Positions 349 through 52,667 of a stretch of 64,000 bases of DNA are shown piece after piece. Under the pieces are notes generated by a model. It searched no databases and had not been told where the DNA came from. It worked only from the letters and a program-made list of their open reading frames with translations. Made by a program: the position numbers and the translations under genes. This DNA comes from Cerasicoccus arenae (GTDB lineage: Bacteria; Verrucomicrobiota; Verrucomicrobiia; Opitutales; Cerasicoccaceae): contig NZ_BMXG01000003.1 of assembly GCF_014651635.1 (NCBI RefSeq), forward strand, positions 62,001 to 126,000. The letters are read 5' to 3'. Position 1 is the first letter of the stretch. Every line of letters starts with the position of its first letter.

Positions 349-3219
349 ATGCGTAATATAGTGATTCCCAGCTCAATGCTCCAAAGACGAACTTGTCTGT
401 TTGCCTCGCTCATCGCTTTTTCCATTTTCTCGGTGGCTTGCCCTAAACTTAGAGCTGACCCTGTTGCGGATTCCGTCCCGGGTTTCTTTTCTGGATTTGC
501 TGCGAACGGGGAAGTGAAATCCATGTATTACCGGATTTTTGAGGCAAGCGAGGCAACAGCGAGTAGTCCCAAGCCGCTAGTGATCTTTCTCCACGGTCAA
601 GGTGAGAGAACGGGAACAGAGCTTCAGCGAGATGGAACGGTCAATACGCTGCAGGTCAAATATCATATTCAGGACCTCATCAGTGAGCTAGATACGTCAC
701 TACACAATGCCTACCTCCTCTGCCCTCAGGAATGGTACGGTGGTGATGCTGAAGCAGACGTAATTGAAGCAATGATCTACGCCATGATGCGCCGCTATCA
801 TATTGATCCGACGAAAATCTATATCACCGGGCTTTCCGCTGGAGGCGGCCAGGCCATTAAGTGCATCACCGATTCGCCCGGTTTGTATGCCGCAGCAGCA
901 CCACTGTCCGGTGCCAACGGATCAAGCGATCCAGCCGCCATGGTCTCAACTCCAACTTGGTTGATGTGTGGTAACAGCGACAGTTTTAAGGGCATATCGG
1001 ATGGACTCTATAACCAGATCGTCGATGCTGGCGGAACTCCAAGACTTACTCTGATCCCGGGCATGGGGCATGGTGGTTGGAACCATATTTATAATGATGA
1101 GCCGGCTTATACGGGCTTCTATGAAGGTGGCGATCCCGCCTACGATTCGACTACAGGCTTCTATGACTGGCTCTGGGCACATGACAATGCCAGCCCGGTG
1201 CATAAGCAGCCCCTTTCGTTGGGCAAGACCGTCCTGATTGACCTCGGGGAGACCTACACAATGGTCACAACTCCCGATAGCTCTGGACGCTATTACAACA
1301 GCCCCGAACTCCGGGACACATTTATCAGCACGCCTGACTTCTCAATTTCCGGTGGTTTTGTAACCACGGATGGAGAGCGCATTGATATGGAATTGAGTAT
1401 ACCTCAAGGATTCACGAACGCAGCTGCTTCCGGCGTTCATTCCACCGCTTTATACGCAAATGATGCCGCTCGCGACACATGGTATGTTAACGCTGGCAGC
1501 ACCGCGGTAGTCAAATTAGCCGGTCTAACTCCTAACGGGAATTACCGGATTAAGCTGTTTGCGTCCCGTGAAAATGGTGCCAGCAGCTACTGGAGTCGCT
1601 ACTCGATCAACGGCATTAGCCTGGACCTCAATGCGAGAAACAACGTGTCCAGCACGGCTTTGTTTCCGAACGTCGTCGCTAATTCCGACGGCGAGATAAG
1701 CATTTCGACCAGCGTCGTCCCTGATTCTGGATCTCCACAAGCTCACTTAGGTATGATCGAAGTCACCAGAATTTCGAGTGGGGGTAGTGGCAATATTCCG
1801 CCACTAGCCATCAACGACACCGCCATCACCGATGAAGACGTTGACGTGAGTATCGACGTGCTCGCAAATGACAGTGATGCAGATGCCAGCCCACAACCGC
1901 TTTCCATTACAGGCGTGAGCACCCCTTCAAACGGGACCGCTCAGATCCTTAACGGAGAAATCCTCTACACCCCGGGCAGTGGCTACTTTGGCAATGACTC
2001 CTTCACCTATACCATCAGCGATGGAACCGATGAAAACACCGCCACGGTGAATGTCACCGTCAACGGCGTCATCGAACCGCCATCAGGCGGCACGTTGTTC
2101 AGTCAGGATTTCTCATCCTCAGACCTTGTCAGTGATTATGCCAACGCAGCACCCGCTGCCAATATCTTTGATGACATCAGTACCGAAGCCGATGGTGGTA
2201 CGTGGAGCATTACTTCAGGCGCACTGGTACTCGACCGCACCGGGTCTTCAAGCGCCAACAATGGAGCGGGTTTTGCAAGAATCACAGACATCGTCACTGA
2301 CCCAGACTTCGTCAAAGTCACCTTGAATTTGTCCATCGATGAAATGTCGACGACGTGGTCAACGCTCTATGCGATTGAATTAGGCAAGTGGACTTCCATC
2401 AGTGATTACAACGATGGGGGCAGCTACGCTAACCTCTTCGAACGCCTTCAGGTGAAAGGCTCGGGATCAAGTGGCTGGATCATCAATGTCGGAGGTGCAG
2501 CCTCCTCCCCCCTTCCCGCTGACGGCTCGTATCAGACCATCACTTGGTATGTAAACAACAGCGGATCAGCGACTAGCTATACCGGCCTGGACGGCCAGTC
2601 TCAAACTCTCGCAAATCTCTCCAATGACGTGTGGATTGGAAATACGCTCGCAATCAACGACTCGCCGCGCACGACTGGAAACGCGCTGGTCATTAATGAT
2701 TTTCGCGTGCGTGTTGATACCTCATTCGATGCGGTTTATGGCTTCGATGACATCAATATTTCCGATACGTTTGACGAAATACCGGTCACTCCCAAGAATA
2801 CATACCAAACCTGGCGTGAGGCGCGGTTCACACAGCAGGAGCTTGCTGATTTGTCGATCAGTGGCAACGACGCCGACCCCGATGGCAATGGCTGGGTAAA
2901 CTTGTTGGAATACGGCTTTGGCAATACGCCAAGCCAACGCGGTGGACACATACAAAATGTCGACGACGAGTTGATGTTTAGTTTTTCTCGCGACCCATCC
3001 CGAGTGGATCTGACCTACGAAATTGAAATGAGCACGACACTGGCTGAAGACAGCTGGGTCGTCATCACACGCAGTGTCGACGGCGCGCCCAGCGAGCTCG
3101 TCAACTCGGCACCGTTCAACCTCCAAGAATCCGGGGATGATCCAATTGAAGTATCCATTAGCCCACTCACGCAGGGGACCGAGACACGTTTCTATCGGCT
3201 AAGTGTAACAACCGACTGA
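349..3219 (+). CDS. Large secreted PHB-depolymerase-like esterase with cadherin-like and lectin-like modules
   Basis: I chose the ATG at 349 (956 aa) over the upstream TTG at 268 because a signal peptide follows directly (hydrophobic core about residues 18-31). Residues 60-300 form an alpha/beta hydrolase: oxyanion motif VIFLHGQGERTG, nucleophile elbow GLSAGGG (Ser163), likely Asp211, and His241 in GMGHGG. After a beta-rich linker comes a cadherin/VCBS-like repeat (about 485-590, containing DVLANDSDADASPQ), then a LamG-like region, then the Verrucomicrobia/Planctomycetes tail DADPDGNGWVNLLEYGFG with Ca-binding-like aspartates. It probably cleaves ester substituents of polysaccharides outside the cell. 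The catalytic domain resembles the smaller esterase at 61395-62177. The substrate is not deducible. Confidence 0.8.
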   Translation: MRNIVIPSSMLQRRTCLFASLIAFSIFSVACPKLRADPVADSVPGFFSGFAANGEVKSMYYRIFEASEATASSPKPLVIFLHGQGERTGTELQRDGTVNTLQVKYHIQDLISELDTSLHNAYLLCPQEWYGGDAEADVIEAMIYAMMRRYHIDPTKIYITGLSAGGGQAIKCITDSPGLYAAAAPLSGANGSSDPAAMVSTPTWLMCGNSDSFKGISDGLYNQIVDAGGTPRLTLIPGMGHGGWNHIYNDEPAYTGFYEGGDPAYDSTTGFYDWLWAHDNASPVHKQPLSLGKTVLIDLGETYTMVTTPDSSGRYYNSPELRDTFISTPDFSISGGFVTTDGERIDMELSIPQGFTNAAASGVHSTALYANDAARDTWYVNAGSTAVVKLAGLTPNGNYRIKLFASRENGASSYWSRYSINGISLDLNARNNVSSTALFPNVVANSDGEISISTSVVPDSGSPQAHLGMIEVTRISSGGSGNIPPLAINDTAITDEDVDVSIDVLANDSDADASPQPLSITGVSTPSNGTAQILNGEILYTPGSGYFGNDSFTYTISDGTDENTATVNVTVNGVIEPPSGGTLFSQDFSSSDLVSDYANAAPAANIFDDISTEADGGTWSITSGALVLDRTGSSSANNGAGFARITDIVTDPDFVKVTLNLSIDEMSTTWSTLYAIELGKWTSISDYNDGGSYANLFERLQVKGSGSSGWIINVGGAASSPLPADGSYQTITWYVNNSGSATSYTGLDGQSQTLANLSNDVWIGNTLAINDSPRTTGNALVINDFRVRVDTSFDAVYGFDDINISDTFDEIPVTPKNTYQTWREARFTQQELADLSISGNDADPDGNGWVNLLEYGFGNTPSQRGGHIQNVDDELMFSFSRDPSRVDLTYEIEMSTTLAEDSWVVITRSVDGAPSELVNSAPFNLQESGDDPIEVSISPLTQGTETRFYRLSVTTD

Positions 3220-13320: not shown

Positions 13321-16300
13321 ATGAGAACACGCACACTCGTTTATCGTATATTTTCATTAATATACTTAATAATTAACGTTAATATCGCTCACGCCGCGCA
13401 GGCGAATGACTTCCCCATCGAGTCCATGGCAATCAATGGTGAAGCCAAAGACGGACAAGGCGTCTTGCAGTTCATCGCACGCTTACTCCCCCCCCCCGGT
13501 AGCGAAGATAAGCAGCCAATTATTTACACCTTTTCGATGGACTCCAACGTCACCGTCGAAGCTGATCGGCTTACGCAGATCACGGAGTTCCGCGCCGACG
13601 TAAAAAGCGGCAAGCTCGAAGAACTCGTCATCGACGTGGCGGGCAACGCCGAGCTTCTCGATGTGACCGGTGATGGAATCGAAAGCTGGAGCCAGCGCCA
13701 GTTAGCCAACAGCTCAAGCAGGCAACTCGTCATCAAGCTCAAGGAGCCAATGAAGTCTGGCGGAATTCCCTTCAAGGTCACCCATGAGCAGCGCTGGGAA
13801 AAGCTTCCGGCTACAGCGTCACCGATTGCCTTTAACCTAGCCGACCCTGGTCTCCTGCATGGGCAACTAAGCGTGAAGCCCAGTGCAAACGTCAGCCTCC
13901 GCGACTGGCAAAGCTCTGGCCTCAAAACTATCGATTCAAATTCGGAAAAGCCCGAGCAAGGGCGGGACTTTATCACTGATGGCCAAACGTATTCGCTAAC
14001 ATTCACCGTGGCACCGCCCACGAATTCGCCAAGCCGCCTCATTGATTTTCAACTCACGGGACAGTGGCAGCCAAACGCTATTGAGTTCAAGCTGACTGGA
14101 GAAATAGTCGTCGACGATCCCGATGGTGCCGATCTGCTGCTGCTATCCGGCGATGCCGCCTTTACCAAGTTACCCAATATTGATGCCACCGAAATTGTTT
14201 ATCGCAATGGCGCGTACCGATTCGTCTCAAAGAAGGCTGGACGTTTCCCCATCGATAGCAACTTCGTGGCCAGTGTAAACAAACAACCCGGCAAGCGATC
14301 CGTGAAGTTTGGCCTAGCATCCAGCGCCTTGCGGCCCGTTCGACTGCTTGACATGCCCGCATCGCCTCAGCGCGTCGAACTCGGCAGCGCGCCCGTTGAG
14401 GCCAAGGACAATGCCTACCTCGGCTATCTGCCACCTACGGGGGCATTCAATCTCCAATGGACTGACCCCGCCTGGCAGGACGATCCAGCAGATCAGGCCA
14501 AGTTATTTTTCACCGCAGAAAACGTGATCGACACCGTCTTGAGCGTTGGGCTTCTACGCCAATCGCAAACGGTTAAAATCAACGTCCTGCAGGGCGCGAT
14601 GTCGTCCCTCAAGCTATGGCTCGATGGCGATGGCGAGATAACCAGCGTCACCGGGCCAGCGGTATTAAACTGGGAGATCGGGCAGCCCGAGCCACAGCAT
14701 TCCGGGCAACGCGCCATCACCATTCGCTTCAACCGTCCGCAAACCGAAACAACGCAAGTTGAAGTCGCCCTGCAAACTGCCTTGGGCGAGTTTCCATTTA
14801 CCGTGGCCCCAGCCCGGTTGACCGTCGACGAAGCGATACGCACCGGCGGTTTCTGGAGTTTGCGCAACGCTGGTGCCGTCGAGCTGTCACCTCAGTCGGT
14901 GCAGAACCTCGCCCAGATCGCCCCGGAATTCCTCCCCCCCTCCCCCCAGCGAGAATCTGCCAAACAGGTCCTCGCCTATCGTTTTGCCGGTAACCAATAC
15001 AGCTTGGGTTTGCTCGTGGACAATATCCTTCCAGAAATCGCCGTGTCAGAAATACTGCTTTATCGACTGGAAGAAAACGACCAAAGCATCAGCGCCGAGT
15101 TCGAGTGCGACATTCGCCGGGCACCCGTGCGCGATTTCCATATTTCACTGCCAGCTGGCTACTCGCTGGCGCAAGTCGACGCTCCAGCCTTAGCCGATTA
15201 TTTCGTGGCGGACGAAGTGCAAGGCCAGAGCGAACTGCGCCTCGTTTTCAGTCAACCGCTTGAGGGAAAACGTGTCATCCGCCTACAGCTTGAGCGTAAT
15301 GATCCACTACCGGAAACAGGCTGGGCGTTGCCCTATCTCGCACCCTTGGGCGTCAAGAGTGTGCGGGGTCACATCGGCGTGGCGGCGGGACCCGGCTTAC
15401 GCCTGTCAGTCGATAACTTGACGGGCCTTGCCGAACAAGTGACCACTTATTTCCCGCAACGCATTAACGACCTGCGGCTCGCCTTACGCTTGCGGCAGCC
15501 AGATTGGTCCGGCCAACTCGGCATCGAAAAACTCAGCCAAAGCGTGCAAGCAGAATCCCTGCACTTGATCACGTTGGCAGAGGGCGCGCTCTACGGCAGC
15601 ACGGTTATCAACTACGCCATTGGTGATGCCCCAGTGGAGTCCTTTCGCATCCGTATTCCCGCCGAATATCAAAACATAAATTTCTCTGGGCCAAATGTCC
15701 GGTCGTGGAAAGTGCTGGAAAACAACGAGTATCTCATCGACCTGCAACGCGCCCAAACCGGGCCCTACACGCTCCTCGTCACCTTCGAATCCAAGTTCAC
15801 CCCGCAAGGCGCACGGTTGAGTTTTGGTGGCGTAGAGCCGCTCGGCGTAGAATCCGAACAAGGCTATGTGGTGGTTACCAGCGATTTCCCCTTCGACATC
15901 TCGTCGATTGAACAATCAACCGGCTTGCTCATGTTGGAACCCAACGAAATCCCGGCGGAGTTCCGGCTGCTTTACGAATCGCAAGTCCTCGCCGCATATC
16001 AGTACACCCGCCGGCCTTTTACATTGAGCTTCGAAGTGGCACCTTTCCAACAAGGCCAAACGGTCAACCAAGTCGTCGACTACACTGAGCTGAGCACTCA
16101 AGTTTCCGGCGACGGCGAACTGCTAACCACCGCGGTTTATCAACTAAAGTCCAAGGGACATCCGCATTTCCGAATGACGCTACCAGCCAACTCAAAATTG
16201 TGGAATGTCACCGTGGCCGATCAAAAAGTCACCCCCGCCGCTGATGGCGAGGCGATTCTGATTCCACTACCAGCCGGGCGAGAAGCCGACACTCCGATTC

Positions 16301-19300
16301 CCGTTCGCTTGCAATGGGCATCCCGCGCCGCCGATCCCCAGTATCTAAAACTCGTGGCACCCAACCTAACCACTCCCGCTCTCATGGTAAACTGGTCAGT
16401 CAGTGTAGATCCTGGTTTCAGTTTGCGCTTTGAGGGTGGCGATCTTCAACCCAGCCAAGTCATCCAGCCAACCGGCGCGTGGTCATGGTTTCGCGATATT
16501 CTGTTCGGCGATTCTTGGCTGGTCAAAATTGGCGCTCTAGCGTGTGTCATGTTCCTCATCACGGGCGTCATTTGCCTGACCAGATTCAAGCAACACAATA
16601 AGCGAACGCTGCTACTCAAGTTTTGCGCAACACTCGCGATTGTGATGGCAATAGTGGGGGGGGTAATTCTCTTGATGACGTATTCGGGAGAGGTTACACA
16701 TGTGTCCACGCTGGACTTTACAACACCGCTGGAGCAATCAAGTACTCCGATGACGATCAGCATCAGCAATCGGCCCGTAGACGATCACGGTGGTAATCCA
16801 ATTGGCTGGATCGGCCTCGGAATCAGCGTGCTCGCACTCGGATTCTGTACTTGGCGCAACCGCGCCGAGTCGGCGATTCCGCTACTCGAAATTGGGGCTT
16901 GGCTGCTCATGCTTTGGAGCGCGCTGCATCTAAGCGCCTCACCGATTTTCTTTGGACTGGTCATCCTCGCCGTCATGGTTCGCTACCTGTATGTTCCGGC
17001 GCGCTCCATGTCCAGAGCGACGGCTGCCGTGACTATCATTACGCTCGCGCTTTTGGGCTTTGCCTCGCCACAAACGATTGAAGCCAAAAGTATTGCGCCG
17101 CCCGTCGAGCTAACGGTTGTCGCGGAAGCAAGCCAGCGCATCGCAGTGGAAAACGATGTAGCCAACGTCAGCGCCACGCTTGTATGGGACGCCGCTGACG
17201 ATGCCACGATTCCGCTGCTATCACACCCAGCTGTCCTGCAAGATATCGACCTGCCAGCAAACATTGAGCTGCGTCTCGATAAGGCAAACAATGCGGAGCT
17301 TTTTGCCAACAAGGCCGGGCGCTACACATTAATTTTGTCATACAGAGTCCCCGTCATCCAACAAGGCAACGAGCGATACATCGAGCTGCCATTGACCCCA
17401 GCGCTGACGAGTCGCGGCACCTTCTCCTTTCCTGGAAAAAATGTTGTGGTCGAATGCAAGGAGGCGGTCTCCTTTACTACGGACACACAGGGCGACCAAA
17501 CGCAGACCAAGCTGGTTTTCCGTCCATCGCCCAAAGTTACGCTGCGCTGGTCGCCGGAAACCCGGGATGTGAGCAAGGAAGAGCGGGTTTACTTTGCCGA
17601 GAGCTACGAAGTTTATCAGCCCATGGCGGGGATCGTCGAGGGCTCCCACCAGATCGAAGTGCGCCCCGCTCAAGGTGTGATCGAGCAGTTGACCATTGCC
17701 ACGCCCGATGCGCTAACCATTACCTCCGTCGACAGCAAGAACCTCAACAACTGGCGCTTTGACCCGGAAAAGCAAGTGGTGGAATTGTTCTTTCAGCCCG
17801 GGCATTCGTCTAACTTCAATGTCGCCATTCGCTCGCAGTACACCAGCCAGTCCCTACCCTACCAACAAGCTGTGCGACCACTTTCCTTGCCTGAGGCAAG
17901 CAGTCAGATTTCACTCGTCGCACTGGCCACGGACTCGGAAGTCCACATCGGAGAAATCAACCTGAAGCAGAATTCCGCAATCAATCTGGAAGACTTCCCG
18001 CTCAGCGCCTTGGAACTGCTAAAGCACCCCGGCAATACGCCGGTGATCCGCCGGGCCTACCGCTGGGGGGGGGGGGCAGAATCGCAATTGAAATTTGAAG
18101 CACTGGCGGTTAAGCCCGACACCCGCGTCAAGAGCGAGAGCCGCATCTCCTATGGCGAAGACCGCACGCTGTTAAACGCCGTGCTCAACATCGAAGTGAA
18201 TCGTGCGGGCGTGTTCCAGCTCAGCTTTGATGTGCCGGAAAACTTTGATATCGAATCGATCAGCAGCCCCTTCCTTAGCCACTGGAGCGAAAGCACAAGC
18301 GAAGATGCCGGACGAGTCGTCACGATGCAGCTCAAACAAAAACTCCTCGGCAACACCCAATGCACAATCACGCTTTCCGGCCCCGGCTTGGCTGGCCAAA
18401 GCGAAGTTACTGCACCACGAATCCTATTGCGGGAGGCCAATCGCCAATCCGGCACGGTGCTGTTTTCCACTGAGCTAGGGTATCGCCTGACGCCCACCGT
18501 GCGTAGCATGGTGACTCAACTCGACCCTAAGGACTATGGCGTCCGCGACGCCCAGGCGCAGTTTTTCCGCTACTTGAGCGAGAAGTCCGAGCTGCAATTT
18601 AAAGTCGATGTCATCCCGCCATGGATCGAGGCATCGCAACATCAGGCTGTGTCTTTTCGTTCGGGCATGATCGAGAATCATGTGCGCATCGAGCTCTCCG
18701 TGGAGAACGCGGGCGTCCGTAAGTTAACCGTTAAAATGCCCACCGACAGCCTCGGCGTGCGCTTCAATGGTGAAGCCGTGGATCGCTTCGAGCCCGTGGA
18801 AGGCCAGGCTGGGCAGTGGGCCGTCTATCTCGATCGCAAGCGAATCGGCAAATTCATGATCAACGTCGAGTATCAACGCTCCACCCCTCAACAACCAGAG
18901 AATGAGACCATCACTGGTTTCCAACTGATGGGCATTGATCAACAGTCCGGTGCCCTGTCGCTCACAGCCCAGGGGCGGCTGGAATTAAAAATCCCCCAGA
19001 TTCCAGAGTCCCTGCAAGATGCTGAGAGCCAGATGATTCCAGCCAAGTTACGGTTCCCAGTCAGCGAGCAAGGGGTCGCACAGGTCTTCCGCGTGCTCAG
19101 TCCCGATTTTTCGTTACCAGTAGAGCTCATTCGCCGCGAATCCGCCGACACCCTTCCCGCCCAAGTCCATGGCGCACAGCTGCTCACCGTGATCAGCGAC
19201 AGCGGCGCGGCGCTTACACGGATGCGGATCAATCTCGACCCCGGTTCCAAGCGTTTGCTGCGGCTGAAGCTCCCGCCTCAAAGCGAATTCTGGTACGCAT

Positions 19301-20220
19301 TTGTGAATCATCAGAGCGCTTGGCCTTGGCGTGAGGGCGACGACCTGATCTTGCAGTTGGAGGCCAGTGCCGTGGACCCCGAATCCTCGCAAGTCGAGTT
19401 TTTCTATTCCAGCAAGCTTCCAGTTTCAGGGAGACGCTTGAACCAAAATCTCGTCGGGCCGCGCGTCGACTTGCCGATGGAGGCCATCGAATGGGAAGTC
19501 TATTATCCAGACTCCTGGAGCGTTAATGAATGGGCGGGTAACATGACCCAAGAGGCAACAGAGACGCCCAGCAGCGAACTATTTTCTCTGATCTCCTACA
19601 CCGAAAGAAGCCGCAAATCCACGGACGAGAAAACCGAGGAAGCCAAGTCCATGCTCGCCGCCGGCAACGTGTTGCTGGAATCGGGTCGCCAAGAAGACGC
19701 CCGCCGCGCCTTTGAGGGTGCCTATAAGCTATCCAGCAACGACGCCGCCTTCAACGAAGACGCCCGCGTCCAGTTGCAAACCCTGCGCGAGCAACAGGCC
19801 GTGGTTGGTCTTTCCCAACGGCGCAATGTCTGGTCCGACAGTCAGATGGAGTCGCAAAGCGCCGCACAAAGCAAAGTGGACATCATGAACTATCGCCAGA
19901 AAGACGCCCAACAACTGCTCCAAGCCAACAGCATTGATGACAACGCGGCTCTGCGCGAAGTCGCTCAGGAACTGCTGCAACAGCAGGAAGCCGCCCTCAT
20001 CCGACCACAGGCGCTACTGACCACCATTCCCGAACAAGGTAAATCGGCTCGCTTTCTTCGCTCCTTGCAGGTCGACGATCAAGCCGATTTGCTGATCAGC
20101 TTTTCCGGGCATCGCCAACAGTTTGGCCAATTCTGGACCAACCTGGGTGCTTTTGCCGCCTTGGTGTTCTTCGTGTTCCTCCTCGCTGGAGCCAATCGCC
20201 TGATGCGGAGAAACGCATAA
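13321..20220 (+). CDS. Giant (2299 aa) membrane protein with internal duplication, ECF/VWA cluster
   Basis: The signal peptide is at 1-26 (LVYRIFSLIYLIINVNIAHA). A long beta-rich exported region follows to about 1055. Transmembrane helices cluster at about 1060-1120 and 1160-1247, a second beta-rich region spans 1250-2090, a TPR-like helical stretch lies near 2100-2150, and a final helix sits at 2272-2293 followed by RRNA. Residues about 241-520 and 1260-1530 look like copies: both carry KAGR(F/Y), an (L/V)xLxW..P strand, then F.AE and an IT.V..LNW/NNW segment in the same order. The gene starts 23 bp after the VWA gene, so one operon is likely. No enzymatic motif is visible. In-frame C10 (13488-13497) and G12 (18065-18076) tracts occur. 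Function unknown; a cell-envelope role is probable. Confidence 0.85.
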   Translation: MRTRTLVYRIFSLIYLIINVNIAHAAQANDFPIESMAINGEAKDGQGVLQFIARLLPPPGSEDKQPIIYTFSMDSNVTVEADRLTQITEFRADVKSGKLEELVIDVAGNAELLDVTGDGIESWSQRQLANSSSRQLVIKLKEPMKSGGIPFKVTHEQRWEKLPATASPIAFNLADPGLLHGQLSVKPSANVSLRDWQSSGLKTIDSNSEKPEQGRDFITDGQTYSLTFTVAPPTNSPSRLIDFQLTGQWQPNAIEFKLTGEIVVDDPDGADLLLLSGDAAFTKLPNIDATEIVYRNGAYRFVSKKAGRFPIDSNFVASVNKQPGKRSVKFGLASSALRPVRLLDMPASPQRVELGSAPVEAKDNAYLGYLPPTGAFNLQWTDPAWQDDPADQAKLFFTAENVIDTVLSVGLLRQSQTVKINVLQGAMSSLKLWLDGDGEITSVTGPAVLNWEIGQPEPQHSGQRAITIRFNRPQTETTQVEVALQTALGEFPFTVAPARLTVDEAIRTGGFWSLRNAGAVELSPQSVQNLAQIAPEFLPPSPQRESAKQVLAYRFAGNQYSLGLLVDNILPEIAVSEILLYRLEENDQSISAEFECDIRRAPVRDFHISLPAGYSLAQVDAPALADYFVADEVQGQSELRLVFSQPLEGKRVIRLQLERNDPLPETGWALPYLAPLGVKSVRGHIGVAAGPGLRLSVDNLTGLAEQVTTYFPQRINDLRLALRLRQPDWSGQLGIEKLSQSVQAESLHLITLAEGALYGSTVINYAIGDAPVESFRIRIPAEYQNINFSGPNVRSWKVLENNEYLIDLQRAQTGPYTLLVTFESKFTPQGARLSFGGVEPLGVESEQGYVVVTSDFPFDISSIEQSTGLLMLEPNEIPAEFRLLYESQVLAAYQYTRRPFTLSFEVAPFQQGQTVNQVVDYTELSTQVSGDGELLTTAVYQLKSKGHPHFRMTLPANSKLWNVTVADQKVTPAADGEAILIPLPAGREADTPIPVRLQWASRAADPQYLKLVAPNLTTPALMVNWSVSVDPGFSLRFEGGDLQPSQVIQPTGAWSWFRDILFGDSWLVKIGALACVMFLITGVICLTRFKQHNKRTLLLKFCATLAIVMAIVGGVILLMTYSGEVTHVSTLDFTTPLEQSSTPMTISISNRPVDDHGGNPIGWIGLGISVLALGFCTWRNRAESAIPLLEIGAWLLMLWSALHLSASPIFFGLVILAVMVRYLYVPARSMSRATAAVTIITLALLGFASPQTIEAKSIAPPVELTVVAEASQRIAVENDVANVSATLVWDAADDATIPLLSHPAVLQDIDLPANIELRLDKANNAELFANKAGRYTLILSYRVPVIQQGNERYIELPLTPALTSRGTFSFPGKNVVVECKEAVSFTTDTQGDQTQTKLVFRPSPKVTLRWSPETRDVSKEERVYFAESYEVYQPMAGIVEGSHQIEVRPAQGVIEQLTIATPDALTITSVDSKNLNNWRFDPEKQVVELFFQPGHSSNFNVAIRSQYTSQSLPYQQAVRPLSLPEASSQISLVALATDSEVHIGEINLKQNSAINLEDFPLSALELLKHPGNTPVIRRAYRWGGGAESQLKFEALAVKPDTRVKSESRISYGEDRTLLNAVLNIEVNRAGVFQLSFDVPENFDIESISSPFLSHWSESTSEDAGRVVTMQLKQKLLGNTQCTITLSGPGLAGQSEVTAPRILLREANRQSGTVLFSTELGYRLTPTVRSMVTQLDPKDYGVRDAQAQFFRYLSEKSELQFKVDVIPPWIEASQHQAVSFRSGMIENHVRIELSVENAGVRKLTVKMPTDSLGVRFNGEAVDRFEPVEGQAGQWAVYLDRKRIGKFMINVEYQRSTPQQPENETITGFQLMGIDQQSGALSLTAQGRLELKIPQIPESLQDAESQMIPAKLRFPVSEQGVAQVFRVLSPDFSLPVELIRRESADTLPAQVHGAQLLTVISDSGAALTRMRINLDPGSKRLLRLKLPPQSEFWYAFVNHQSAWPWREGDDLILQLEASAVDPESSQVEFFYSSKLPVSGRRLNQNLVGPRVDLPMEAIEWEVYYPDSWSVNEWAGNMTQEATETPSSELFSLISYTERSRKSTDEKTEEAKSMLAAGNVLLESGRQEDARRAFEGAYKLSSNDAAFNEDARVQLQTLREQQAVVGLSQRRNVWSDSQMESQSAAQSKVDIMNYRQKDAQQLLQANSIDDNAALREVAQELLQQQEAALIRPQALLTTIPEQGKSARFLRSLQVDDQADLLISFSGHRQQFGQFWTNLGAFAALVFFVFLLAGANRLMRRNA

Positions 20221-40602: not shown

Positions 40603-43549
40603 ATGTCATATTTGAGCGATAATCCACGCGAATCAGCCCGCCACTACATTCCTGCTGGGGACGCCGATACCGCCGCCATGCTGGCCAAACTCGGCCTAAA
40701 CACGCTCCGCGACCTCTATCGACACATCCCCCCCCCCTCCTTCCATGAGGGCGAATTAAAGCTCCCCCCCGAATTGGGCTACACCGAGACGCAGGAGAAG
40801 ATGTCGAGCATTGAGGCGAAGAACATCATCCGGGCAAATTTCATTGGTGATGGCCTCCCCGACTACTCAGTGGACCCGATTGTGCCTTATGTCTGTGGCA
40901 TCCGCAATCTTGCCACAGCTTACACGCCGTACCAGCCCGAGCGCAGTCAGGGCACGCTTATCACGCACTGGATCTACCAATGCGCGCTCACGCAGCTGAC
41001 TGGCTTCGAGGCGATCAATTCCTCCCTCTATGACCGGGCCACAGCGCTTTTCGAGGCGATCTGCTGTTCGATTCGCCTAGCGCGCAAGGCCGACACCGCC
41101 TTGGTCGCGGGCAATCTCTACCCCGGGGATCTCGAAGTGCTGCAAACCCTGATCGCCGAGACCGAGATCAAGGTGGAAATCATCGATGCGGATCCCAAGA
41201 CGGGCCTCCTCGACGCAGGAGTCGTCCAAGCCCGCGCCACTGCACTTGGCGACAAGCTCGCCGCGGTGGCGTTCCCTCAGGTCAACAACCTCGGCTTGCT
41301 GGAAGATGTTGACGCGTTGACAGATGCCGTGCATGCTGCTGGTACGCTGGCAATTGCAGTTGTTGATCCGATCCTGTTGGCCGAAGGAGGGCTCAAGCCA
41401 CCGAGTGAATTTGGCGCTGAGGGCGCAGATATCCTCGTGGGCGAGGCGCAGCATTTGGCTATCGGGCCAAATTTTGGCGGGCCGGGCCTAGGCCTTTTTG
41501 GTGTGCGGCAAAATGAAAAGGCGAAGAACAACGTCCGCGCAACACCAGGCCGTTTCGTTGGGTTGGCCAAAGACGAGGCTGGCCGCGAATGCTGCGTAAT
41601 GGTGATGTCCACCCGCGAACAACACATTCGCAAGGACAAGGCCACGTCTAACATTTGCTCCAACCAAGCCTTCATCGCCACGTTGGCGGGTGCATCTCTG
41701 TTGGCCCGCGGTGACGCTGGGCTTGGCTCAATGATCGCGACTGGACGCCAACGGGCCGAGCAATTTGCTGATGCCTGCGCCACCAAACTCGCCTTCCCAG
41801 AGGCACCCTGCTTCAACGAGGTTACGATTGTCGTGGACGACGCTAAGGCCTTTATAGAAAAGGGCCGCACAGCCGGTCTCTGGGCGGGAGTGGACGTGAG
41901 CGATCGCGTAAAAGACGGCCGTCAGCTCGTTAAAATCAGTTTTTCGGATCGTCAGAGCGAGGAAGATGTCGCCAAGCTGGCGACGATCGTTGACGGAGCA
42001 AAGGGCGGATCGTTGCCCCTGATTCCAATTGAGCTTTTACGGGGTAAGGCACCGATGATCCCGGCCTTTTCGCAGGCAGAACTGCAGACGTATTACCAAC
42101 GCCTCGGGGAGCTCAATGTTTCCCCGGACGATGCCTGCTATCCGCTTGGCTCCTGTACGATGAAGTACAACCCCGCGCTCAACGAATGGGCGGCGGACCT
42201 TCCCGGCTTCACTGACGCACACCCGCAAGCGCCTGCCGCCGATATGCAGGGCTGCCTAGAAGTGCTTTACGATGTGCAGGAGTGGTTCAAGGCGATCACT
42301 GGTTTGCCGGCGGTCACCACGCAGCCAGTTGCTGGTGCGCAAGGTGAGCTGGTCGGTTTGAAGCTTTTCCAGGCCTACCACCGCAAACGTGGCGAAGCTC
42401 ATCGCGATGTGGTCTTCATCCCGCGCAGTGCTCACGGAACGAATTTTGCCACCGCCTCGATGGCGGGCTTGGCCACAGGCAAAGTCGACGGAAAAATGCG
42501 CGGCATTGTCCTGCTCGAAGACGGCGAAGATGGACGCATCGATCTGGCTGATTTCGAAAAGAAACTCGCCGAGTTTGGCGACCGCCTCTGCGGGGTGATG
42601 ATCACCAACCCCAACACCTGCGGCCTGTTCGAGACTGATTTCCGCCTGATCGCGGACAAGGTTCACGCCGCTGGCGGCCTTGTCTATATGGATGGTGCCA
42701 ACATGAATGCTATCGCCGGCTGGCTCGACCTCGACAAGCTAGGCGTTGACGCGGTGCACAACAATTTGCACAAAACCTGGACCATCCCGCATGGGGGGGG
42801 GGGGGCCTGGTGACGCCATGGTCGCCGTCAGCCAAACGCTCATCGATTTCTTGCCCGGCTATCAAATCGAGAAGCAAGGTGGCGAGTTTGTGCCGGTTAA
42901 ACCCAAGCACAGCATCGGCTCGTTCCATCGGCACTGGGGGAATTTCGCGCACAAGGTGCGGGCCTATACTTACCTGCTACGTCTGGGCAAGGAAGGCGTC
43001 CGCCGGATGTCGGCGATGTCGGTGCTGTCCGCCCGCTACCTGCTCAGCCGCTTGCGCGAACGCTACCCTACCCTGCCCGCTGGTGCTCCGGACGCGCCCC
43101 GTATGCACGAGTTCATCCTTACACTAAGCGAGGACGACTTTAAGGGGCTAGAAGCGGCTGGTGTGCCGCGCGCAATGGCAATTACCCGTGTGGGCAAGCT
43201 CTTCCTGGACTTCGGGTTCCACGCGCCGACAGTCGCTTGGCCGGAGCAATTCGGTTTAATGATCGAGCCAACGGAAAGCTATACCCAGGCCGAACTGGAC
43301 CGCTTTGCTGACGCCGTCATCCGCATCAAGGACGTGATCGAGCAGCACCCGGACGTTCTCAACAGCGCACCACGCTTCACGCCGGTTGACCGGGTGGACG
43401 AAGTCGCCGCGAATCGTCAGCTCACGCTTTCAGCGCCGCTGACCGGCTTGCCTGCGATTCACGAAAACCGCCTCTCGCCGCGCATCATCGCAGAAATGCC
43501 GATAGACGATATTTTCGAGCGTGTGACGGGCTGTTGCGCAACAGTCTAG
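40603..43549 (+). pseudogene. gcvP: Glycine dehydrogenase (decarboxylating), frameshifted by a 13-G tract
   Basis: P-protein of the glycine cleavage system: PLP-dependent decarboxylation of glycine, passing aminomethyl to lipoyl-GcvH. The single-chain form is seen, with N-half PPPSFHEGELKLPPELGYTE (motif near residue 45) and C-half GSCTMKYNPALNEWA, AGANMNA-like DGANMNAIAG and PLP lysine Lys724 in NNLHKTWTIPHGGGG. At 42793-42805 thirteen G residues put the frame into Ala-Trp-stop; with twelve the sequence would read GGGGPGDA and continue to 43549, giving about 981 residues, normal length. Either the gene is off, is rescued by slippage, or the tract is misread. GcvT and GcvH genes are not adjacent. 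Confidence 0.93.
42793..42805 (+). repeat. 13-G homopolymer that breaks gcvP
   Basis: Follows CCGCAT and precedes CCTGGTGAC. The tract encodes the Gly-rich loop immediately after the PLP lysine. Twelve G restores the conserved frame. It is one of the two longest tracts in the window. Confidence 0.9.
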
Positions 43550-43765: not shown

Positions 43766-43841
<76 letters not shown>

Positions 43842-51559: not shown

Positions 51560-51572
51560 GGGGGGGGGGGGG
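51560..51572. repeat. 13-G homopolymer directly after the recA stop codon
   Basis: The tract touches the recA stop (CTA at 51573-51575 on plus). Length changes would not alter RecA but could affect the 3' end of its mRNA. On the recA strand it is C13. Confidence 0.85.
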
Positions 51573-52667
51573 CTAATTCTTCTCGTTTTCGCTGTCGGCA
51601 CTGTCTTCGTCGTCGAGGTTCGCAATTGAGTCACCGCCATGGACTTCGACTTTGCCGAGGATGATTTCGGTAATTTCCTTCATCGCTTCCGGGTGTTGGG
51701 CGAGGTATTCCTTGGCATTTTCACGGCCTTGGCCGATCAAATCGCCCTTGTAGCTGATCCAGGCACCCTTCTTTTCGAGCACTTTGTGCTCAATGCCGAG
51801 GTCGAGGACGGAGCCTGTGCGGGAGATGCCTTCATTATACATGATGTCGAATTCGCATTCGGTGAAGGGGGGGGCTACCTTGTTCTTCACGACCTTCATG
51901 CGCGTGCGGTTGCCGATGACGGAGCCATCAGTCGACTTGATCTGGCCAATGCGACGGATGTCCATGCGGACGGAGGAGAAAAACTTCAGCGCACGGCCAC
52001 CGGGGGTGGTTTCCGGGCTGCCAAACATAACCCCGATCTTTTCGCGTATCTGATTGGTAAACAGGCAGATGCATTGCGTGCGGTTGATGGCGGCGGTCAG
52101 GCGGCGCATGGCTTGGCTCATCATGCGGGCCTGTAGGCCGACGGTTGAATCACCAAATTGGCCGTCGAGCTCGTTCTTTGAAACCAGGGCAGCGACCGAG
52201 TCGATCACGATAATATCGACTGCGCCGGAGCGGATCAGCGTCTCAGTGATGTTAAGGGCGTCTTCGCCGGATTCGGGCTGGGCGACCATCAGATTTTCGA
52301 GATCCACACCAACAATTTTCGCATAACGGGGGTCGAGCGCGTGCTCCACGTCTACAAACACCGCATTACCGCCTTCACGTTGGGCTTGGGCGATGATGCT
52401 CAAACAGAAAGTAGTTTTACCTGAAGACTCTGGGCCATAAATTTCGCAGATACGCCCCTTGGGCAGACCGCCTACGCCGAGCGCCAAGTCGAGTGCGACC
52501 GAGCCGGTGGAAATGACTTCGATGTTCTTCTTGGCCGCCTCACCCATCTTCATGATGGCCCCGTCACCAAATTGCTTGTTGATAGCGGAAATCGCGAAAT
52601 CGAGCGCCTTGTTGTCGCGCTTGTCAGAGGTGAATTTTGTCGTGGTGGTTTTCTTTGCTGCGGCCAT
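51573..52667 (-). CDS. recA: Recombinase A
   Basis: A 364-residue strand-exchange ATPase. Walker [10 protein letters not shown] (78-86) and the loop regions [29 protein letters not shown] and [15 protein letters not shown] are canonical; the C-terminus is acidic ([13 protein letters not shown]), as usual. It drives homologous recombination and LexA cleavage. Upstream there is only a TGTGA-N8-TCACA dyad (52747-52764) and no clear LexA box. A C8 run (51867-51874) encodes Pro-Pro in frame. Confidence 0.98.

Follow-up and report, generated by a model that had tools for sequence, protein, structure and literature searches.

The single-chain glycine dehydrogenase gene (gcvP) of Cerasicoccus arenae is cut short, as assembled, by a run of 13 G's in the loop that follows its presumed PLP lysine. 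The preferred explanation is a plain and recent +1 slip in one of the many expanded G/C tracts of this genome, with a miscounted tract length as the alternative. The chances of the plain slip are put at about even. If a selected switch, in itself improbable, is counted along with it, a real slip of some kind becomes somewhat probable; a sequence error is a possibility of lesser weight. Across the genome, the pattern is one of G/C runs promoted by mutation pressure while selection preserves the reading frame.

In what follows, "the window" is the whole stretch of 64,000 nucleotides that was analyzed. Positions without a prefix refer to it.

The interrupted gene

An earlier, sequence-only reading had claimed that a G13 tract at 42793-42805 interrupts gcvP, and the coordinates, exactly, and the frames agree. 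The 736-residue protein assembled from 40603-42813 ends in ...HKTWTIPHGGGGAW, where GGGGAW comes directly after HKTWTIPH and is followed by the stop. No frame is open across the entire single-chain protein; as assembled, it breaks at residue 736. The Lys724 of this motif is taken here to be the PLP lysine.

The 730 codons before the tract, four glycines and the 247 codons after it make 981 residues, which is the start-to-stop length of gcvP in all three congeners. This bears out the earlier claim that twelve G's would give four glycines and a protein of about 981 residues. The TIGR00461 profile is covered up to position 697 before the tract and resumes at 702 after it, so the frame is the sole loss. 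The extra G had also been called the only defect of the gene. Frames and congener comparison revealed no further stop or frameshift in gcvP besides G13, and the rest is open in the other frame.

The G13 run far exceeds what chance would give. Overlapping matches to nine G's number 22 in the window (8 runs, both strands), where shuffling gives an expectation of 0.49, and none of 100 shuffles reaches 22. G runs of at least 12 number three, whereas a first-order Markov estimate predicts 0.0024.

A second tract in gcvP is C10 at 40728. Here the congeners have Ile-Pro-Glu-Ala-Ala or Ile-Pro-Ala-Glu-Ala, and the length is unchanged. No glycine riboswitch was found at gcvP, Rfam at gathering thresholds giving only tRNA in the window. 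A tRNA-Gly gene (anticodon GCC) lies downstream of gcvP on the opposite, minus strand, at 43766-43841.

Table 1 Coordinates of the gcvP features, of comparison tracts in the window and of tract-bearing core genes elsewhere in the genome.
Feature	Position	Strand	Evidence
13-G homopolymer; 12 of the 13 G's form four Gly codons, in the loop after the PLP lysine	42793..42805	+	sequence, congener comparison
gcvP upstream frame as assembled (736 aa), closed by a TGA shortly after the tract	40603..42813	+	GDC-P PF02347 E 2.1e-77
gcvP remainder, other frame, 247 codons + stop	42806..43549	+	GcvP2_C PF21478 E 2.3e-22; pN/pS 0.083-0.095
Lys724 codon in HKTW, PLP lysine by position	42772..42774	+	aligned with lysine of NLHKT in PDB 4lgl
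Second gcvP tract, C10, in frame (Ile-Pro-Pro-Pro-Ser)	40728..40737	+	codon comparison with congeners
Comparison tract G12, in frame, within 2,264-aa ORF	18065..18076	+	run scan, frame test
Comparison tract G13, directly after stop of minus-strand gene called 51573-52667	51560..51572	+	run scan
dnaA, in-frame C12	L174:3324-4724		Pfam
uvrA, in-frame G12	L154:1194-4013		Pfam
tsaD, in-frame G11	L157:3355-4386		Pfam
gatB, in-frame G10	L196:1841-3319		Pfam

Type of enzyme

Both halves of the gene match the glycine dehydrogenase P-protein family, in any of its forms. On the 730 residues before the tract, the NCBIfam gcvP profile TIGR00461 gives E 5.5e-116, which is below its whole-protein cut-off. 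The two pieces match profile positions 3-697 (388.4 bits) before the tract and 702-870 (96.7 bits) after it.

The intact gcvP proteins of two congeners (L085 and L086:1501-4443) also do not reach the TIGR00461 cut-off of 859.2, with 506.5 and 506.7 bits. The same two proteins pass the GcvPA cut-off of 364 (373.8 and 366.9 bits) and the GcvPB cut-off of 441 (490.9 and 489.1 bits). Because intact congeners pass these two and fail the gcvP one, the single-chain gcvP looks, by its profile scores, like a natural GcvPA-GcvPB fusion. The name gcvP is kept here for the single-chain form only, and the gene does not score as a TIGR00461 equivalog.

Separate GcvPA and GcvPB genes were considered as a cause of the break and rejected: residue 736 falls inside the GcvPB-like half. 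The GcvPB profile matches over 37-282 before the tract and 287-486 after it.

The gene shares its order of parts with single-chain GcvP (PDB 4lgl, 6i33, 9uz6), and NLHKT-x-x-IPH could be aligned with 4lgl. It differs from these in being interrupted, and in belonging to a divergent branch. Members of the genus are 83-84% identical, 30 further genomes from the order 54-68%, and more usual GcvP 31-37%. The loop motif HK-x-x-x-x-PHGGGGPG is present when each side of the tract is translated in its own frame, and it is intact in all 23 relatives whose loop was read.

A second glycine dehydrogenase

A two-subunit enzyme is encoded on another contig (C5:57023-59907) as a GcvPB of 486 aa and a GcvPA of 455 aa, both above family cut-offs. 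Also above their cut-offs are gcvT and gcvH, which have no inner stops. The glycine loop of GcvPB has the codons GGC GGC GGA GGT and no tract, while gcvPA bears an in-frame C11.

Among 54 genomes, both the single-chain and the two-subunit kind were matched only in the four genomes of the genus and in G004, from another genus of the family. G004 and the three congeners carry both enzymes with gcvP at full length. In the remaining relatives with the single-chain enzyme, no two-subunit kind was matched.

Relatives and selection on gcvP

These 54 genomes, C. arenae included, were searched for gcvP. The enzyme is found at 54% identity or more in 34 of them (33 relatives and C. arenae). Another 14 have no match, four have a more distant GcvP (34-37%), and two have a fragment or weak match. 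All 33 relatives have an open, full-length frame of 982-1083 codons; only that of C. arenae is short, at 740. The nearest named relatives by sequence, among the matches listed, are MAGs of Opitutae, Opitutales and Puniceicoccaceae at 56-58%, from a search that may omit records very near the window's genome.

For the loop codons, 39 loci of relatives were submitted, 29 from this 54-genome search and 10 from a set of 80 matches of a separate one, and 23 were read; the other 16 were in the opposite orientation or the motif was not found in them. The four glycines are encoded in all 23, none of which uses four GGG codons, and the tract is absent from the loop in each of them.

Measured against the three congeners, uncorrected pN/pS is 0.083-0.095 over the 247 codons after the tract, and higher, at 0.193-0.213, over the 730 codons before it. 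On this codon comparison, the part behind the tract is still under purifying selection. With such low values after the tract, gcvP is therefore no old pseudogene.

Another view is given by sites that are invariant in five other species. After the tract, C. arenae differs at 2 of 148 such sites, and the congeners at 0 of 146, 1 of 147 and 0 of 146. Before it, the counts are 4 of 404 for C. arenae and 1 of 401, 12 of 412 and 0 of 400 for the congeners. The two changes after the tract are the most of the four genomes, yet too few for showing decay. By these comparisons, gcvP was selected as a full protein until recently, or still is.

Genome-wide excess of G/C runs

Counted on either strand, the 4.13-Mb genome holds 455 G runs of at least 9, against 94, 5 and 52 in the three congeners, whose genomes are larger. 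Runs of exactly 10 number 144 (27, 3 and 17 in the congeners) and runs of at least 12 number 88 (13, 0 and 7).

These 88 runs are the highest count among the 288 genomes sampled from the phylum, followed by G117 with 78 and then G066 with 45. G117 is a distant genome of 3.0 Mb from another class of the phylum, and its 78 are likewise G runs of at least 12. The tract-rich condition is thus extreme, not unique. It may have arisen more than once, because G117 is so distant.

Within the window, which was not selected for tracts, G/C runs have a long-tailed distribution: 9 of length 6, 4 of 7, 6 of 8, 2 of 9, 3 of 10, 1 of 12 and 2 of 13. A/T runs have no such tail. In 486 kb (the window plus 80 stretches, the G/C part of this sample being chosen by tract), neither A nor T forms a run of 9 or longer. 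The long tail fits growth of runs once they are long.

An ORF of 2,264 aa in the window, at 13426-20220, holds three G/C runs of at least 8 (C10 near its called start, G8 and G12). It has no Pfam match at 1e-5.

Lost mismatch repair was considered as the cause of the tracts and rejected: mutS1 and mutL, the two genes covered by this check, are intact and above cut-offs.

Frame keeping inside genes

Frames were tested on the window and 80 stretches, 79 of them around listed tracts, with 144 runs of at least 9 in total. Coding was called by a codon model trained on the same DNA, and is found on both sides of 46 runs. For the other 98 (65 coding on one side, 33 on neither) the frame test is uninformative.

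The frame is kept at 42 of the 46 two-sided runs, where about one third would be expected if lengths were random. The other four are two gene junctions (L140 and L199), where the end of one gene overlaps the called start of the next, and two gene breaks (gcvP and L150). With the junctions set aside, 42 of 44 within-gene tracts are in frame. True breaks occur at 2 of 17 tracts of 12 bases or more and at 0 of 27 of 9-11 bases, so that the assembled length keeps the frame in 15 of the 17 longest.

L150 (about 1900-2747, minus strand, with C16 at 2245-2260) is an apparently broken gene that seems to continue in another frame. Its protein has, by eye, a signal-like N-terminus, and the C16 lies in a proline-rich linker.

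A Pfam scan covered 18 tract-bearing proteins, hand-picked from the 71 called genes that hold 82 within-gene runs of at least 10. Besides the genes in Table 1, it identified a membrane proton pyrophosphatase with a G10 tract. Orthologues were available for 10 of 14 picked tracts, each from one, two or three congeners. In none of these 10 does the length differ, the codons around the tract matching one for one. Differences from the congeners are either silent (GGC to GGG) or change amino acids; for example, GatB has Gly in place of Glu, UvrA Gly in place of Thr, and TsaD Gly-Gly-Gly in place of Lys-Thr-Lys. In one of the 10, an AAA ATPase, the congener G001 has the identical CCC CCC CCC run, and not every tract is therefore private to the species.

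Nearly all the tract genes tested are in frame, a state that selection may be maintaining.

Placement, strand and assembly

Of the 74 listed runs of at least 12, 36 are intergenic. For shorter runs the intergenic share is 15-19% at lengths 4 to 7, 16 of 57 at 8-9, and 7 of 51 at 10-11. The intergenic excess is clear at 12 and above, weak at 8-9 and absent at 10-11. Such a distribution is in keeping with selection against the longest runs inside genes.

Within 100 bases upstream of predicted starts, 16 of 17 intergenic runs of at least 9 are poly-C on the gene strand and one is poly-G. Without the broken gene L150, the split is 15 C to 1 G. Within 100 bases past stops, it is 14 C to 11 G. One possible reading of the bias upstream of starts is a purging of G runs from 5' leaders; another is that C runs have a function at these sites. 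Long upstream runs, all intergenic and in the L133-L212 set, are found at L184:2223-2255 (C33), L159:2219-2246 (28) and L182:2257-2281 (25).

Tracts also tend to agree in strand along contigs. Among the listed exact-10 and at-least-12 tracts, from which these counts are drawn, 109 of 154 adjacent pairs are alike, as are 65 of 91 pairs more than 10 kb apart. Local GC skew is followed by 54 of the 74 listed tracts of at least 12. A drive tied to the replication strand was nevertheless rejected: runs of 5 (259 of 364) and of 6-7 (79 of 103) behave alike. Short runs also follow the skew, and the agreement therefore reflects strand composition and is no special signature.

Of the 74 listed tracts of at least 12 (88 in total), 9 have a contig end no more than 120 bases away, where 0.1 would be expected. 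Not one of 100 listed tracts with a length of exactly 10 (144 in total) is so close to an end. The contigs that end at long tracts are C1, C2, C4, C5, C7, C12, C14, C17 and C18. Long tracts have therefore troubled the assembly.

Possible explanations

Comparison shows that the four glycine codons of the loop became GGG GGG GGG GGG, a slippery run of 12 bases, which the sequenced genome carries, as assembled, at 13. The 13th G most likely came from replication slippage, in culture or shortly before. It would shorten GcvP from 981 to 736 residues with loss of the C-terminal part, and the single-chain enzyme would probably be off in those cells. The loss would be tolerable because a second, intact GcvPA/GcvPB enzyme remains; with GcvT and GcvH, whose genes are also present, it presumably is active. 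The change should be reversible through another slip. Counted against the plain slip are the contig ends at long tracts, the changes at 2 of 148 invariant sites, and the intact mutS and mutL.

Sequencing or assembly error is a serious rival. The cells would then carry 12 G's and an intact gcvP, and the 13th G may be an error of the consensus. The clustering of contig ends at long tracts, far above chance, agrees with this, as do the absence of clear relaxation in gcvP and the fact that both frame breaks sit at long tracts, G13 and C16. It is countered by the 15 of 17 two-sided coding tracts of at least 12 that keep the frame, which points to generally sound length calls even for tracts of 12-14 bases. 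Error was one of three options offered by the sequence-only reading, and the one that survives, beside a one-off slip. It ranks as a tentative second choice.

Phase variation was another option offered; in its adaptive form, selection would keep the tract as a switch that turns glycine cleavage on and off. Reading frames that contain a long G tract are the classic architecture of such switches, and G13 is indeed a homopolymer of at least 8 within a reading frame. In Campylobacter, poly-G tracts of at least 8 mediate switching (PMC6321876), and Akkermansia, of the same phylum, is described as having tracts of more than 8 bases in 17 genes (PMC3048395). But the gcvP tract is not common to the congeners, and similar tracts sit in dnaA, uvrA, tsaD, gatB and the membrane pyrophosphatase, which are unlikely contingency genes. 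The 42 of 44 within-gene tracts in frame also argue against switching, and any switch would be blunted by the backup enzyme. The option thus finds no support, and a dedicated switch is unlikely.

The poly-G contingency loci of C. jejuni are similar in that a long G/C homopolymer lies within a reading frame and a one-base change ends the protein early. The C. jejuni study (PMC6321876) gives a median of 20 phase-variable tracts per genome, against 455 runs of at least 9 in C. arenae, under differing definitions. Unlike the C. jejuni loci, the C. arenae tracts lie in core genes and nearly all those tested are in frame. According to the same text, the share of tracts that are on in draft genomes is closer to a neutral-drift prediction, and one origin of poly-G tracts is drift from three glycine codons to nine G's.

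Orsi et al. 2010 (PMC2831843) describe homopolymeric tracts as a general route of gene inactivation in prokaryotes. Frameshift-prone runs inside genes are common to both cases, but there poly(A) and poly(T) are reported as overrepresented, whereas in C. arenae long runs are confined to G/C, with A/T runs all shorter than 9 in the 486 kb. In the Akkermansia capsule, phase variation is by inversion, and slippage may also occur, according to PMC13343947. Searches of the open full-text literature on phase-variable gcvP, on gcvP homopolymer frameshifts and on Opitutales homopolymers returned nothing on point.

It is also conceivable, though as improbable as the dedicated switch, that the several hundred G/C tracts serve a function across the whole genome and are not a burden left by mutation. 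Tracts in reading frames would then be unstable in living cells, as would the poly-C tracts (10-33 bases) just upstream of start codons, and both would set expression cell by cell. Many genes would be affected, core metabolism included, and gcvP would have been caught in its off state.

Fixed loss, with gcvP as an early pseudogene that is redundant beside GcvPA/GcvPB, is very unlikely. GcvPA and GcvPB are intact and the truncated protein lacks its last 247 codons, but gcvP has no other lesion, selection past the tract is not clearly relaxed, and the three congeners and G004 keep both enzymes with a full-length gcvP.

Least likely of all is the remaining option offered, programmed slippage or recoding that yields both full-length and truncated GcvP: a long homopolymer does lie shortly before the frame-0 stop with an open frame downstream, but the transcript would have to drop one G, or the ribosome to shift by +1, the slippery run is poly-G rather than A/T and is not conserved (0 of 23 relatives read), and the transcriptional insertions in homopolymeric runs of E. 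coli and Buchnera reported in PMC5574713 are all at A/T runs. Those runs are shorter than 13, reaching at most 9 in E. coli and 11 in Buchnera, where few are G/C; transcriptional deletions seldom coincide with runs (in Buchnera, 16 of 57 do), again according to PMC5574713.

Significance

A slipped homopolymer in a single gene is ordinary. Within the phylum sample, what is not ordinary is a 4.1 Mb genome with 455 G/C runs of at least 9, some of them in frame in core genes, and with mutS and mutL intact. For automated annotation, C. arenae is a warning as well: a single miscounted G would make a pseudogene of an intact gene.

The genome provides a natural test between long homopolymers that are spread by mutation pressure and filtered by selection, and those that are kept for switching. 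If mutation pressure is the right view, core genes should carry frame-keeping tract lengths, with rare accidental breaks like that in gcvP. If switching is, tract lengths should be mixed.
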